Translations under genes and position numbers: made by a program
In this document: positions 2,679 through 24,722 of the stretch, piece by piece
Layout of the letters: each line of letters starts with the position of its first letter
Numbering within the stretch: position 1 is the stretch's first letter
The notes under the pieces: model-generated
Told to the model about the DNA's origin: nothing
Databases searched by the model: none
Seen by the model: the letters and a program-made list of their open reading frames with translations, nothing else
Assembly: GCA_029068505.1 (NCBI GenBank)
Contig: JAIECN010000053.1
Span: 1-33,363, forward strand
From: Alistipes sp.
Lineage (GTDB): Bacteria > Bacteroidota > Bacteroidia > Bacteroidales > Rikenellaceae
DNA: 33,363 nt
Direction of reading: 5' to 3'

Positions 2679-3959
2679 ATGAACTCCATTTCCGACCAAG
2701 AAGCCCTACGCTACCATGGCGAGGGGCGCCCCGGCAAGATCGGCATCGAACCGACCAAACCCAGCCGCACGCCGCACGACCTTTCGCTGGCCTACTCGCC
2801 CGGCGTGGCGGCTCCGGCACGCGCCATTGCGGCCGATCCGGCCGACGCCTACCGCTATACGAACAAAGGCAATCTGGTGGCCGTGCTTTCCAACGGCTCG
2901 GCCGTGCTGGGCCTGGGCGACATCGGGCCGTTGGCCTCCAAACCCGTCATGGAGGGCAAGAGCATGCTTTTCAAGCGTTTCGCCGGAATCGACGCGTTCG
3001 ACATCGAAATCGACGAACACGATCCCGAGGCATTCGTCCGCATGGCCAAGGCCCTCGCCCCCACTTTCGGGGGCATCAATCTGGAGGACATCAAGGCGCC
3101 CGAATGCTTCGAAATCGACCGGCGTCTGCGCGAAGAGCTGGACATTCCGGTGATCCACGACGACCAGCACGGCACGGCGACCATCGTGTCGGCAGCCGTA
3201 ATCAACGGAGCGAAAATAGCAGGAAAAAGCATCGGCAAGCTCCGCATCGTCATCAACGGAGCCGGTGCGGCGGCCATCGCCTGCGCACGTATGTTCTTGA
3301 CTCTGGGCATCCCGCGCGAGCAGATGATCCTCTGCGACAGCCGCGGCGCCGTCACCCGCTACCGCGACGATCTGAATCCGCTCAAGCGCGAATTCGCCAC
3401 CTCGCGCCGTCTCGCCGGCCTGGGCGAAGCGCTGCACGGCGCCGACCTCTTTCTGGGACTCTCCAAGGCCGACGTGCTTACGGTCGAAATGATCCGCACG
3501 ATGGCCGGCAATCCCATCGTTCTGGCACTGGCCAACCCCGATCCCGAAATCGCCTACGACGCGGCTATGCGCTCGCGGCCCGACATCATCTTCGCCACCG
3601 GACGTTCGGACTACCCCAACCAGGTGAACAACGTGCTGGGATTCCCGTTCCTTTTCCGCGGGGCGCTCGACGTGCGCGCCACGCAAATCAACGACGCCAT
3701 GAAACTTGCAGCCGCGCATGCGCTGGCCGAACTGGCCCGACGCCCCGTGCCGGAACATGTGCTGCGCACCTACGGTCTCGAAAAATTGGCGTTCGGCCGC
3801 GGCTGCATCATCCCCAAGCCGCTCGATCCGCGGCTGCTCTCCACGGTTTCGACCGCCGTAGCCCGCGCCGCCGTGGAATCGGGCGTCGCCCGGCAGCCGA
3901 TCGATGACTGGAATGCCTATGCCGAACGCCTGCACGGACTCGAAACCGAATACACATAG
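2679..3959 (+). CDS. NADP-dependent malic enzyme, single-domain (no phosphotransacetylase domain)
   Basis: [82 protein letters not shown]; ~426 aa. Confidence 0.92.
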
Positions 3960-3986
3960 AATATAAGGAACTCTTGAGAAAAAATC

Positions 3987-4015
3987 GCCCCGGCTGCGTC
4001 TGTCGCAACCGGGGC
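3987..4015. terminator. Bidirectional-looking hairpin between convergent genes
   Basis: gccccgg-c-tgcg-tctgt-cgca-a-ccggggc; minus-strand reading is followed by a T6 run (aaaaaat on plus). Confidence 0.75.
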
Positions 4016-4072
4016 ACCCTTTTGTTAAAACGTTTTAGCCCGCCTAATTCGTTCCATATCGGGCATCCGTTT

Positions 4073-5092
4073 TCATCCGCTCACTTTTTCGGCGAATTCC
4101 TCCACCGGCATGGGCCGCACCTCGCAATCGCCGATCCCTACGGGCAACACGATGCGCAACACGCCGTCTTCGCTCTTCTTGTCCTTGCCCACCTCGGCGA
4201 GCAGACGTCCGACGGGCACCGGAGGCACAAGATCGAAGCCCAGGGCGCGCAGCAGCCCCACGATGCGATCCCGGTCGGATGCCGACAACACCCCTTCGCG
4301 CACGGCAACGTCGGCGATCATGGCCGTACCCACGGCCACCGCTTCGCCGTGGTTCATCCGCGACGAACACTTCTCGATGGCATGGGCCAGCGTATGGCCC
4401 AAATTGAGCTTGCGCCGCTCGCCCGTTTCACGTTCGTCGCGCTCCACGATGTCGGCCTTCACACGGATCGCCGCCGAAACGGCATCCGCCAGCAGATCGG
4501 TATCCTTGCGCAACGTCTCGAACGAAGTGCGCTCCAGCCGCGCGAAAAGGTCGGCATCGGCGATGATGGCCGTCTTGACCGCCTCGGCCAGTCCGGCCCG
4601 GAACTCGCGGTCGGGCAGCGTGCGCAGAAGCGCCGGATCGCAGATGACGAAATCGGGCTGGCTGAACGTCCCGGCCATGTTCTTGTAACCATCGACATTC
4701 ACGCCGTTCTTTCCGCCGACCGAGGCATCGACCTGCCCCAGCAGCGTGGTCGGCACGAAACCGAACTCCAGCCCGCGCATATAGGTCGACGCGGCGAAAC
4801 CGGCGACATCGGTCACGATGCCGCCGCCCACGGCCAGCACGAACGTCTTGCGGTCGACGCCCAGCTCGATGAAACGCCGGTAGAGCATTTCGACCGTGCG
4901 CAGCGTCTTGTTCTCCTCGCCCAGGCCGATCGCAACCTTGTCGAAAGGCGCGAGCCACGGCGCGAACAGCTTCTCGGTCACGGTGTCGCACACCGCGACC
5001 GTGCGTCCCTCGGGCAAGAGTCCGGGCAGGAGATCGGCCGCCGGGCCTATGTAGATTCCGCTTTGCTCGCGGATGTTGAAAGCAGGCTTCAT
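4073..5092 (-). CDS. aroB: 3-dehydroquinate synthase
   Basis: AVGGGIVTDVAGFAASTYMRGLEFGFVPTTLLGQVDASVGGKNGVN and NLGHTLAHAIE; start at MKPAFNIREQ. Confidence 0.96.
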   Translation of the reverse strand: MKPAFNIREQSGIYIGPAADLLPGLLPEGRTVAVCDTVTEKLFAPWLAPFDKVAIGLGEENKTLRTVEMLYRRFIELGVDRKTFVLAVGGGIVTDVAGFAASTYMRGLEFGFVPTTLLGQVDASVGGKNGVNVDGYKNMAGTFSQPDFVICDPALLRTLPDREFRAGLAEAVKTAIIADADLFARLERTSFETLRKDTDLLADAVSAAIRVKADIVERDERETGERRKLNLGHTLAHAIEKCSSRMNHGEAVAVGTAMIADVAVREGVLSASDRDRIVGLLRALGFDLVPPVPVGRLLAEVGKDKKSEDGVLRIVLPVGIGDCEVRPMPVEEFAEKVSG

Positions 5093-5118
5093 GCTTTCCG
5101 ATTTTTTTAAGAAACAGA

Positions 5119-5126
5119 CAAATTTA
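5119..5126 (-). promoter_or_regulatory. -7 element TAAATTTG for aroB
   Basis: CAAATTTA on plus strand, 27 nt upstream of the aroB ATG. Confidence 0.5.
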
Positions 5127-5148
5127 GCACAATTTACCCGGATTTTGC

Positions 5149-5156
5149 TACCTTTG
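5149..5156 (+). promoter_or_regulatory. -7 element TACCTTTG for typA
   Basis: TAnnTTTG consensus, 19 nt upstream of the typA ATG at 5176. Confidence 0.6.
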
Positions 5157-5175
5157 CACCACAAAACCCATTTCT

Positions 5176-6978
<1,803 letters not shown>

Positions 6979-19483: not shown

Positions 19484-20734
19484 ATGCAACGCAAAGATAT
19501 CGAAATCATGGCCCCCATGGGGTCGTACGAGGCATTGGCGGCCGCGATCCAGGCCGGCGCCGATTCGGTCTACTTCGGGATCGGACGCCTGAACATGCGC
19601 GCCGCCTCGGCGGCCAACTTCACGGAAGACGACCTGGCGGAAATCGTCGCCACGGCCCACGCCGCAGGACTGAAAGCCTATCTGACGGTCAACACGATCG
19701 TCTACGAAGACGAAATCGCCGCCGTCCACGAAGTGATCGACCGGGCCAAGGCCGAGGGCGTGGACGCCATCATCGCCACCGACATGGCCGCCATACTCTA
19801 TGCCCGGCGCATCGGCGTGGAAGTCCACATATCGACCCAGAGCAACATATCGAATTCCGAAGCCGTGAAGTTCTTCTCGCAGTGGGCCGACACGGTGGTG
19901 CTGGCCCGCGAGCTGACGCTGGAGCAGGTGGCGCGCATCCATCGGGAAATCGAGGACAACGACATCCGCGGCCCGCGGGGCGAGCTGGTCGAAATCGAGA
20001 TGTTCGCCCACGGCGCGCTCTGCATGTCGATTTCGGGCAAATGCTACCTCTCGCTCTACGAGACGGGGTGTTCGGCCAACCGCGGCGCCTGCCGCCAGCT
20101 GTGCCGCCGCAAATACACCGTCGCCGACAAGGAGACCGGTGCAGCGCTCGATGTCGACGGCCGATACGTATTGTCGCCTCAAGACCTCTGCACCATCGAT
20201 TTCCTCGACCGGTTCATCGACGCCGGCGTGCGCGTGCTCAAGATCGAGGGGCGCGCCCGGGGCGCGGAGTATGTGAAACGCGTGGTGGAGTGCTACGACG
20301 AAGCCCTGCGGGCGATCGAGACCGGCACCTACACGCCCGAACGGGCGGCCGAACTGAAAGAACGCCTGCGCACGGTCTTCAACCGCGGATTCTGGGAAGG
20401 CTACTATGCGGGGCGTCCGGTCGCCGAGCACAGCACCCGCTACGGTTCGTCCGCCACGCGCCGCAAAGTCTACGTAGGCAAGGTGACGAACTTCTTCAAG
20501 AAACTTTCCGTGGCCGAAGTGCTGGTCGAAGCGGCACCGCTGCATACCGGAGAAGAAATCTTCTTCATGGGCGCGACGACGGGCGTAGCGGAACAACGGC
20601 TGGAAGAACTGCACGGCCCCGACGGTGCGCCCGTGACGACCGCCGTGCAGGGCCAGCTTTGCTCCATCCGCACCCCGGGTGTGATCCGCCGCGGCGACCA
20701 GCTCTACAAATTCGAAAACGCCGAAAACGACTGA
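19484..20734 (+). CDS. U32 family peptidase / tRNA hydroxylation-type protein (TrhP/YegQ-like)
   Basis: IMAPMGSYEALAAAIQAGADSVYFGIGRLNMRA, ALCMSISGKCYLSLYETGCSANRGACRQLCRRKY. Confidence 0.92.
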   Translation: MQRKDIEIMAPMGSYEALAAAIQAGADSVYFGIGRLNMRAASAANFTEDDLAEIVATAHAAGLKAYLTVNTIVYEDEIAAVHEVIDRAKAEGVDAIIATDMAAILYARRIGVEVHISTQSNISNSEAVKFFSQWADTVVLARELTLEQVARIHREIEDNDIRGPRGELVEIEMFAHGALCMSISGKCYLSLYETGCSANRGACRQLCRRKYTVADKETGAALDVDGRYVLSPQDLCTIDFLDRFIDAGVRVLKIEGRARGAEYVKRVVECYDEALRAIETGTYTPERAAELKERLRTVFNRGFWEGYYAGRPVAEHSTRYGSSATRRKVYVGKVTNFFKKLSVAEVLVEAAPLHTGEEIFFMGATTGVAEQRLEELHGPDGAPVTTAVQGQLCSIRTPGVIRRGDQLYKFENAEND

Positions 20735-20805
20735 ATCGAACGGCCGTACGAACAGCCGCATTGTCCGGAACTCCGTACAACAGAATCTTCATAGGCATCT
20801 TCATA

Positions 20806-20881
20806 AAAAAGGTGCGGCGGCCTACTAATCTTTAGGACTTGTTATGGCAGTAACGGGTCTTTTTTACCGCCGCACCTTTTT
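20806..20881. terminator. Large nested hairpin, probable bidirectional terminator
   Basis: aaaaaggtgcggcgg (20806-20820) and ccgccgcaccttttt (20867-20881), perfect 15-bp arms; an inner 9-bp stem gacttgtta/taacgggtc (two G-U) is followed by T6. Confidence 0.8.
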
Positions 20882-21026
20882 CCCGACAGCAGCCATGCAC
20901 GACAACAGAGAATCCGCCCTCCGCAGAGAAAGAGTTCCTCGCGAGCCAGCCGCAAAACAATAAGAAAAACAGCAATACAATACCGAAACCGAACGCCTAT
21001 TCCTCGAGGCTTTCCGACATCGAATC

Positions 21027-21198
21027 GATCTGGCAGGTCTTCTGACTTGCTCGGGTTCCGAAGCCTTCCCGACCCGTACGGGCCAGTGGCAAAGAAGTTC
21101 GGAACATCCGGTGAGCTTCACAGCAGCGGGACTGTTCGGGATTCCCACCCGATTCCCTTTTCACCCGCTCCCCCGTCGGGAGAGGCAGGCACCAGATC
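21027..21198 (-). promoter_or_regulatory. Cobalamin (B12) riboswitch
   Basis: Minus strand: P1 gatctgg/ccagatc closes the element; conserved blocks GAATCCCGAACAGTCCCGCTGCTGTGAAGCTC, GCCACTGG, and B12-box-like AAGTCAGAAGACCTGCC. Confidence 0.93.
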
Positions 21199-21203
21199 TT
21201 CTG

Positions 21204-21211
21204 CAAAGATA
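21204..21211 (-). promoter_or_regulatory. -7 element TATCTTTG driving the riboswitch transcript
   Basis: Plus-strand CAAAGATA immediately outside the P1 5' arm (21198); -33 element not clear. Confidence 0.65.
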
Positions 21212-21357
21212 ATCATTTATTCCCGACTTGGCTGCTTTCCACCGATTTTTCTGCAAAAAACCGCAATCCGCCGGATCGGAAACGGCGCTTTGCCGGCTCC
21301 GGCCGATTCCGCGGCACGGCACGTGCAAAGTTGGCACAAAATTGTAGAGACCGGCTC

Positions 21358-21387
21358 TTGTTGTTTCGAAAGAAATCACTACTTTTG
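21358..21387 (+). promoter_or_regulatory. Promoter for secA (TTG-N19-TACTTTTG)
   Basis: TTG 21358-21360, TACTTTTG 21380-21387; ATG at 21429. Confidence 0.65.
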
Positions 21388-21428
21388 TAAGATTTAGAAT
21401 TCAAAACCTCTGCAAACAGAATCTACCT

Positions 21429-24400
21429 ATGGATATAGTTGCCAGTCTGATCAAAATGATCTTCGGCTCGAAAGCCGACAAGGATCGCAAGGAAATCGAG
21501 CCTTATCTCCAGAAGATCAAGGCCGTATACCCCGAAATCGAAGCACTCTCGAACGACGGCCTGCGCGCCCGGAGCGAGGAGCTGAAACGCCGCATCGCCG
21601 AGTACATCGCCGGAGACGAAGCCCGCATCGTCGAACTGCGCGCCCAACTGGAAAAACCGGAAACGACGCTCGAAGAGAAAGAGAAGATTTCCAAGGAGAT
21701 CGACGACCTGACCAAACGCATCGACGAACGCATCGAGGAGAAGCTCGACGAGATCCTGCCCGAGGCATTCGCCATCATGAAGGATACGGCGCGGCGCTTC
21801 GCTCAAAACGAGACCGTCGAGGTGACGGCCAACGATTTCGACCGCGAACTGGCCGCGACCAAAGACTTCGTGCGCATCGAGGGCGACAAGGCCGTCTATG
21901 CGACCCACTGGCTGGCCGGCGGCAACGACGTGAAGTGGGACATGATCCACTACGACGTACAGCTCTTCGGCGGCGTGGTGCTCCACAAGGGCAAGATCGC
22001 CGAGATGGCCACGGGCGAGGGAAAAACTCTGGTGGCGACGCTTCCGGTGTTCCTCAACGCACTGGCCAAGAAGGGCGTGCACCTGGTGACGGTCAACAAC
22101 TACCTGGCCAAGCGAGACAGCGAGTGGATGGGGCCGATGTATGAGTTCCACGGGCTGTCGGTGGCCTGCATCGACGACACGCAGCCCAACTCCGACGCCC
22201 GGCGCGCGGCCTACATGGCCGACATCACCTTCGGTACGAACAACGAATACGGCTTCGACTATCTGCGCGACAACATGGCCTCGTCGCCCAAAGACCTCGT
22301 GCAGCGCAAACACCACTTCGCCATCGTCGACGAGGTGGACTCGGTGTTGATCGACGACGCCCGTACGCCGCTCATCATCTCCGGCCCGGTGCCCAAGGGC
22401 GAAGACCAGCTTTTCGAGCAGTACCGCCCGGCGATCGAGAACCTCTACAACCTCCAGAAGAACCTGGTCACCTCGCTGCTGGCCGAGGCGCGGCAGCTGA
22501 TCGCCGACGGCAAGAACGAGGAGGGCGGCATCAAGCTCTACCGCACGCACAAGGGTCTGCCCAAGTACAAGCCGCTGATCAAATACCTCTCCGAGCAAGG
22601 CATCAAGGCGCTGATGCAGAAGACCGAAAACGTCTACATGCAGGACAACAACCGCCGCATGCCCGAGATCACGGACGACCTCTATTTTGTGATCGACGAG
22701 AAACTCAACTCGGTGGAACTGACCGACAAGGGTCACGAGGCGCTGTCGAAATACTTCAACGAAGACGGCTTCTTCGTGCTGCCCGACATCGGCGCCGAGG
22801 TGGCCGAACTGGAAAAGAGCGATCTCTCGGCCGAAGAACGGGCGCAGAAGCGCGATGCGGTCATCAACGACTACTCGATCAAGTCGGAGCGCGTACACAC
22901 CGTGCACCAGCTGCTCAAGGCCTACGCGATGTTCGAAAAGGACATCGAATATGTGGTCATGGACAACAAGGTGAAGATCGTCGACGAGCAGACGGGCCGC
23001 ATTCTGGAAGGACGCCGCTATTCGGACGGCCTGCACCAGGCGATCGAGGCCAAAGAGCACGTGAAGGTCGAAGCCGCGACGCAGACTTTCGCGACGATCA
23101 CCTTGCAGAACTATTTCCGCATGTACCACAAGCTGGGCGGCATGACCGGTACGGCCGAAACCGAGGCTTCGGAGTTCTGGTCGATCTACAAGCTCGACGT
23201 GGTGGTGATCCCGACCAACCGTCCCGTAATCCGCGACGACCGCCAGGATCTGATCTACAAGACCAAGCGCGAGAAATACAACGCCGTGATCGAGGAGATC
23301 GTGCGGCTTGTGGGCGAGGGGCGCCCGGTGCTGGTCGGCACGACGTCGGTCGAGATTTCGGAGTTGTTGAGCCGCATGCTCAAGCTCCGCGGCATCAAGC
23401 ATAACGTGCTCAATGCCAAGCAACACCAGCTGGAGGCCCAAGTCGTGGCCGAAGCCGGCCGCGCCGGACAGGTAACCATCGCCACCAACATGGCGGGCCG
23501 CGGAACGGACATCAAGCTGACGCCCGAAGTCAAGGAGGCGGGCGGTCTGGCCATCATCGGCACCGAACGCCACGAAAGCCGCCGCGTCGACCGCCAGCTG
23601 CGCGGCCGTGCAGGACGTCAGGGCGACCCGGGATCGTCGCAGTTCTTCGTCTCGCTCGAAGACGACCTGATGCGTCTGTTCGGCTCGGGCCGCATCGCCG
23701 CCATGATGGACCGCATGGGTCTGAAGGAGGGCGAAGTGATCCAGGCAGGCATGATGACCAAAGCCATCGAGCGGGCGCAGAAAAAAGTCGAGGAAAACAA
23801 CTTCGGCATCCGCAAACGCCTGCTGGAATACGACGACGTGATGAACTCGCAGCGCGAAGTGATCTACACGCGCCGCCGCCACGCCCTCTACGGCGAACGG
23901 ATCGAAATCGACCTGAACAACATCATGTACGACTTCGCCGACAACTTCGTGGAGACGCACCAGGGCATCGAATACGAAGATTTCCGCTTCGAGCTGATCC
24001 GCGAAATATCCGTCGAGCCGAGTTTCGACGCCGCGGCCTACGAAGCGGCCAAGCCGGGCGAGCTGGTGGAAATGGTCGTTGCGGACATCCGGGCCTCCTA
24101 TGCCCGCCGGGCCAAGGCCGTGGCCGACACGGTGCGGCCCGTCATGCAACGCATCTACGTGGAGAAGAAAGACCAGCTCGACTCGAACATCTACTTCCCC
24201 ATTACCGACGGCCACCTGGGCTACAACGTGCCCGTGAACCTGCAAAAGTGCAAGGACACCGACGGTGCCGAAATCTACAAGGTATTTTCCAAGGTAGTGA
24301 TGTTTACCTCGATCGACGACGCCTGGCGCGAGCACCTGCGCGAAATGGACGACCTGCGCCAGAGCGTGCAGAACGCCACCTACGAGCAGAAAGACCCGCT

Positions 24401-24722
24401 GCTGATCTACAAGTTCGAGTCGTTCGGGCTGTTCTCGAAGATGCTCATCGATGTCAACCGCGACGTGCTGGCCATACTGAACAAGGCCTACATTCCGGTG
24501 CGCGACCAGAACGCCGAAGCCATGCAGCGCGAACGGCAGCAACGCGCCAAGGTCGACGTCAACAAACTGCAAGCCTCGCGCATGCAGGCGGCGGCGCAGG
24601 CGGGCCAGGGCGACCAGCAGAAACCCATGCCCCTGCATGCGGAGAAGAAGGTGGGCCGCAACGACCCCTGCCCCTGCGGCTCGGGCAAGAAGTACAAAAA
24701 CTGCCACGGAAAAGGAATGTAA
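21429..24722 (+). CDS. secA: Preprotein translocase subunit SecA
   Basis: [53 protein letters not shown]-terminal zinc motif [18 protein letters not shown]. Confidence 0.98.

Follow-up and report, generated by a model that had tools for sequence, protein, structure and literature searches.

The window analysed here, a stretch of 33,363 nucleotides of Alistipes DNA, carries between secA and a U32 peptidase-like gene a minus-strand cobalamin riboswitch that is probably what remains of a cobalamin-repressed gene, a leader still intact, with the coding part lost by deletion. This reading is drawn from sequence comparison with related genomes. The locus consists of the following features.

19484 to 20734, plus strand: U32 peptidase-like gene, an open reading frame convergent with the riboswitch; it neighbours the same cassette in the genomes G012, G009, and G071
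20733 to 20792, minus strand: relic of a target gene of about 122 codons, codons 1-20 (MKILLYGVPDNAAVRTAVRF), from alignment with G167, G012, and G009
20805 to 20881, minus strand: element R, a 13-bp terminator-like stem with a U-run, leader element of the small gene, from covariation, genus and locus scans, and folding
20980 to 21026, minus strand: probable expression platform, a conserved segment downstream of P1 containing a short hairpin, from alignment of relatives
21015 to 21211, minus strand: cobalamin riboswitch aptamer (RF00174), P1 at 21198..21027, from a covariance-model match and same-genus homologues
21204 to 21211, minus strand: −7 promoter box TATCTTTG of the Bacteroidetes type, directly upstream of P1, from sequence reading
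21429 to 24722, plus strand: secA, an open reading frame divergent from the riboswitch, with the same arrangement in G167

The aptamer is an ordinary member of RF00174. Minus-strand positions 21211-21015 match the model over its full length (positions 1-189) with 111.9 bits and an E value of 1.7e-27, the gathering score being 31.5 bits. An earlier note on this DNA had recognised a full cobalamin riboswitch, and the covariance-model check bears this out; the P1 helix (21198..21027), the B12 box, and the TATCTTTG motif at 21211-21204, at the 5′ edge of P1, hold on rereading, as do the spacer of about 150 nt, the strong hairpin, and the opposing U32 gene. Homologous leaders were found by scanning the genus with the window locus, and in most of these copies TATCTTTG or a close variant stands directly before P1. 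No clear −33 box is seen upstream of TATCTTTG in the window. The stretch 20980..21026, less diverged than the spacer that follows it, contains a short hairpin (CCU-CGAGGAAU-AGG in the window and CCC-CGnGGRAU-GGG in relatives) and probably serves as the expression platform. The similarity to RF00174 extends with a high score over all 189 positions; the usual targets of that family are btuB, cob, and nrd genes, whereas the target in the relatives of the window is an undescribed small protein and none is left in the window itself. The source genome contains two more cobalamin riboswitches, and one of its others (L004, contig C84 of G000, 6200-6397, minus strand) stands before an open reading frame (3803-5896) resembling NrdD, the ribonucleotide reductase that is anaerobic and independent of B12. 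In two genomes, G165 and G151 (L094 3159-3219 and L097 3154-3214), a SAM-II riboswitch is located some 2.4 kb away from the cobalamin riboswitch.

It had been stated that the riboswitch has no recognisable target gene. This is correct for an intact gene, which is absent downstream on the same strand and present in relatives, but a remnant of 20 codons of the usual target was overlooked. The relic MKILLYGVPDNAAVRTAVRF starts 12 nt past the U-run of the hairpin 20881-20805 and, in the alignment with relatives, runs after codon 20 straight into the 3′ end of the U32 gene, the small gene having lost about 300 nt; the approximately 20 surviving codons display no decay. At the secA/U32 locus of G167, G012, and G009, the small gene is present. 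In G012 and G009 it is an open reading frame of 121-142 aa beginning with MKILLYG, located 10-12 nt past the hairpin and ending at the U32 3′ end. In G167, the closest relative (secA 96% identical, same arrangement on the secA side), the frame is open up to the contig end at codon ~105. By these alignments, the absence of the target gene in the window is secondary. G071 contains a different remnant, truncated and devoid of its start codon, and the family genome scan revealed no second copy of the small gene in the window genome or in G071. Because the two remnants differ and other copies are lacking, the comparison indicates that the gene was lost at least twice in this group. The window would thus illustrate how an orphan riboswitch originates, with the target gene deleted and the switch left intact. 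In G026, the small-protein gene bears an in-frame TAA (L092, around 6000-6350), possibly another decaying copy.

The small protein of about 122 aa is present in 26 of 268 Rikenellaceae genomes, 25 of which belong to the genus of the window. A homologous cobalamin riboswitch lies upstream of the gene in 22 of these 26 carriers, directly in 18 and with an AspT/YidE-type permease (Asp-Al_Ex) interposed in four (G054, G063, G218, and G146, where the permease spans two contigs); four carriers have the gene with no riboswitch upstream. The gene next after it in G146 is cobA, encoding corrinoid adenosyltransferase, and in G061, where the small gene is absent, the riboswitch and element R precede cobA itself. 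The protein (A1, A5) has no matches in Pfam and NCBIfam. Its AlphaFold model displays an alpha/beta fold (pLDDT 85) with no fold match in the PDB by Foldseek at E<=0.001, and sequence-profile comparison with the PDB yields only E values of 0.4-1.3, none significant. The N-terminus MNIVLYG recalls adenylate kinase, with a loop devoid of GK and hence of the P-loop lysine; an adenylate-kinase or P-loop fold was considered and rejected, as the Walker A motif GxxGxGK[ST] is absent and there is no significant similarity. In Alistipes, which are common gut bacteria, an undescribed protein family is now tied to vitamin B12, and its genomic partners are an AspT/YidE-type permease and a corrinoid adenosyltransferase. 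As far as this analysis shows, the B12-linked family and element R are both new.

Element R comprises about 77 nt. The fold of 20881-20805 (about −32 kcal/mol, z −5.9) is more stable than those of all 200 shuffled sequences, and its stable G+C-rich stem followed by six U has the make-up of an intrinsic terminator. The hairpin had been taken as the terminator of a small RNA; terminator-like it is, but it is also a conserved leader element preceding the ATG of the small gene. Thirteen loci carry it (the window, G167, G012, G009, G071, G173, G146, G169, G063, G061, G064, G166, and G218), and G054 has a weak one. In ten of the thirteen, from ten species (G167, G012, G009, G173, G146, G169, G063, G064, G166, and G218) it lies 10-18 nt before the small-gene ATG. 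G218, which belongs to another genus and was left out of the element R models, scores 65 bits. On alignments of 6 and 11 sequences, 9 of 20 pairs are changed on both sides, compared with 2-3 in shuffles, none of 500 reaching 9; almost all double changes in the inner hairpin are owed to a single sequence, G169. Sliding the pairing partners along the element destroys the pairing.

Terminator stems in general keep their pairing. Like intrinsic terminators and attenuators, R has a strong stem and a U-run just before a start codon; unlike them, it carries an inner hairpin whose loop (CUGCCA in the window) has an invariant CUGCC, and a conserved unpaired GAUUAGU, and these features, retained beside a spacer that diverges by up to 71%, exceed the needs of a plain terminator. 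The element is absent in seven genomes of the An66-like clade that possess riboswitch and gene, and in several others; since it is missing in carrier genomes, R is dispensable, an accessory. In the four permease operons it comes after the stop codon of the permease, apart from the aptamer, so R travels with the small gene and not with the aptamer. The role of expression platform of the aptamer is ruled out for these four operons. Two other candidates were rejected: a mobile or genome-wide repeat, as strong matches in the genus and family (covariance model and pattern) lie essentially all at the small gene or its relics, and a leader peptide in the spacer or R, as reading frames are not kept among relatives. 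Elsewhere in the order no convincing matches to R were found, only short terminator-like ones, and the scan of 20730-21430 gave no relevant Rfam match for R at E<=10. Taken as a leader element, R is most likely an intrinsic-terminator attenuator of the small gene. As a structured element absent from Rfam, it is directly testable. Between R and cobA in G061 (L118 6577-6861) there are three TATCTTT(G/A) promoter-like boxes, each followed by a similar stretch, possibly a small repeat or promoter array.

The homology of the riboswitch, its association with the small gene, the loss of this gene, and the conservation and pairing of R are established on sequence, and from them the regulation, the ligand, and the action of R may be outlined. 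The order in relatives is promoter, cobalamin riboswitch, sometimes the permease, R, the ~122-aa gene, and once cobA. Cobalamin riboswitches usually act by repression in the presence of cobalamin (PMC11575231). Here, the cobalamin-bound aptamer would repress the downstream genes, which would be made when cobalamin is scarce. As a strong intrinsic terminator upstream of the small-gene ATG, R would constitute a second gate. In the permease operons, R follows the permease stop codon at a distance of about 2-8 nt, and a ribosome at this stop codon would cover the 5′ arm of R and let the polymerase through; the small gene would thereby be coupled to permease translation, and the control that the riboswitch exerts on permease translation would become read-through of R. 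Where R directly follows the aptamer, a ligand or protein would act on the conserved loops, or R would leak. In the window, the transcript would now end at R, yielding an orphan RNA of about 395 nt.

Contiguous or tandem riboswitches (PMC12452182), like the window, combine two structured regulatory elements within a single leader; they differ in that R is no known aptamer and in four operons a gene separates it from the aptamer. It can be proposed only tentatively, as a minority possibility, that R represents a new class of cis-regulatory RNA in series with the B12 riboswitch and that the RNA is still selected in the window and G071. R would then be an aptamer of its own or a protein-binding attenuator gating an undescribed B12-linked protein, and perhaps be autoregulated by the small protein.

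The preferred reading, a leader deprived of its gene, overlaps in part with one proposal of the earlier note, the remnant of a B12-uptake operon that was lost: it is a relic, but the lost gene encodes the small protein and is not a btuB-like uptake gene. The other proposal, a B12-controlled small RNA, found no positive evidence, although aptamer and hairpin are indeed intact in the window and G071; it is unsupported because in relatives the conserved hairpin serves the small gene as the leader element ahead of its ATG. The note took the intact core to speak against advanced decay, and the leader is essentially undecayed. Over 101 columns invariant in 19 gene-bearing homologues (gene-bearing ones being left out in turn), the window aptamer departs from 2, G071 and G061 from 0, and gene-bearing aptamers from 0-4. 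The window and G071 diverge by 13% in R and 12% in the aptamer versus 71% in the spacer. The window and G167 differ at 20% of secA fourfold sites and in 34% of the spacer, and rough arithmetic gives 10-17 aptamer changes expected on the window branch since the G167 split in the absence of constraint. The few changes seen against this expectation imply either that the loss is recent or that the leader is still selected; recent loss of the small gene would be the simpler reading. The partly broken inner hairpin of R in the gene-less G061 agrees with decay after gene loss.

Second best, behind the orphaned leader, is the reading that a B12-responsive regulatory RNA of about 395 nt, with R at its 3′ end, was kept and, like Rli55/EutX, acts in trans or binds a protein. 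It is unlikely. The aptamer and R are little decayed in the window and G071 even though both have lost the gene, their aptamers deviate at 2 and 0 of the invariant positions, 10-17 changes being expected in the window aptamer since the G167 split without constraint, and R offers a hairpin loop rich in C and an unpaired stretch that is conserved. However, a recent deletion accounts for this equally, wherever a gene-bearing genome has R it goes together with the small gene, and the inner hairpin of R is partly broken in G061. Rli55/EutX of Listeria and Enterococcus is a B12-riboswitch RNA that sequesters EutV (PMC6794450). It shares with the window a B12 riboswitch followed by a noncoding hairpin tail, with a total of about 400-450 nt, but its paired tail hairpins are bound by EutV, while the window has just one hairpin, with the CUGCC loop, enclosed in a terminator stem; at the loci homologous to the window the leader is followed by a protein gene, and no eut locus adjoins the window element. 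The ANTAR-type hairpin pair is the defining tail motif of Rli55/EutX-type RNAs. No such pair was found in the window tail, only the one inner hairpin with its CUGCCA loop.

That the truncation is an assembly artefact, the species carrying an intact small gene, is very unlikely. The source assembly is fragmented and of metagenome type (1.69 Mb, 117 contigs, 84.7% complete) and decay is not seen in the 20 codons left, but the locus lies within a 33-kb contig and a second genome, G071 (5 contigs), is truncated differently at the same place.

Barely credible is a riboswitch acting antisense on U32 (or secA), its minus-strand transcript interfering with the convergent gene: the nearly symmetrical R could terminate both transcripts, but the minus-strand transcript is predicted to end at 20805, leaving 71 nt to the U32 stop at 20734, riboswitch and small gene occur without a U32 neighbour in G023, G053, G173, and others, and G007 has secA-U32 with no riboswitch between. 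AspocR of Listeria, an antisense-acting cobalamin riboswitch on pocR (PMC9943018), is likewise transcribed toward a gene on the opposite strand, meeting it from its 3′ end, but in the window the predicted terminator lies before this gene and the neighbour is not conserved; the defining features of Rli55 and AspocR both appear to be lacking in the window.

For the permease, no report of a cobalamin-controlled AspT/YidE-family member or of a succinate-exporter role of the AspT-like protein was found in the literature searched. Since methylmalonyl-CoA mutase needs B12, a succinate-exporter link of the AspT-like permease, which has SucE-type relatives, would be plausible. In G016 (L044 1-2144), an AspT/YidE-type permease comes directly after a cobalamin riboswitch, the two being separated by a terminator-like hairpin of another kind (GTACGGCGAGC/GCTCGCCGTAC). 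The small protein has a second, divergent copy in G065 (contig C29, L099 5630-6469, minus strand); it is 279 aa long, has no riboswitch upstream, and carries a low-complexity insertion of about 100 residues.
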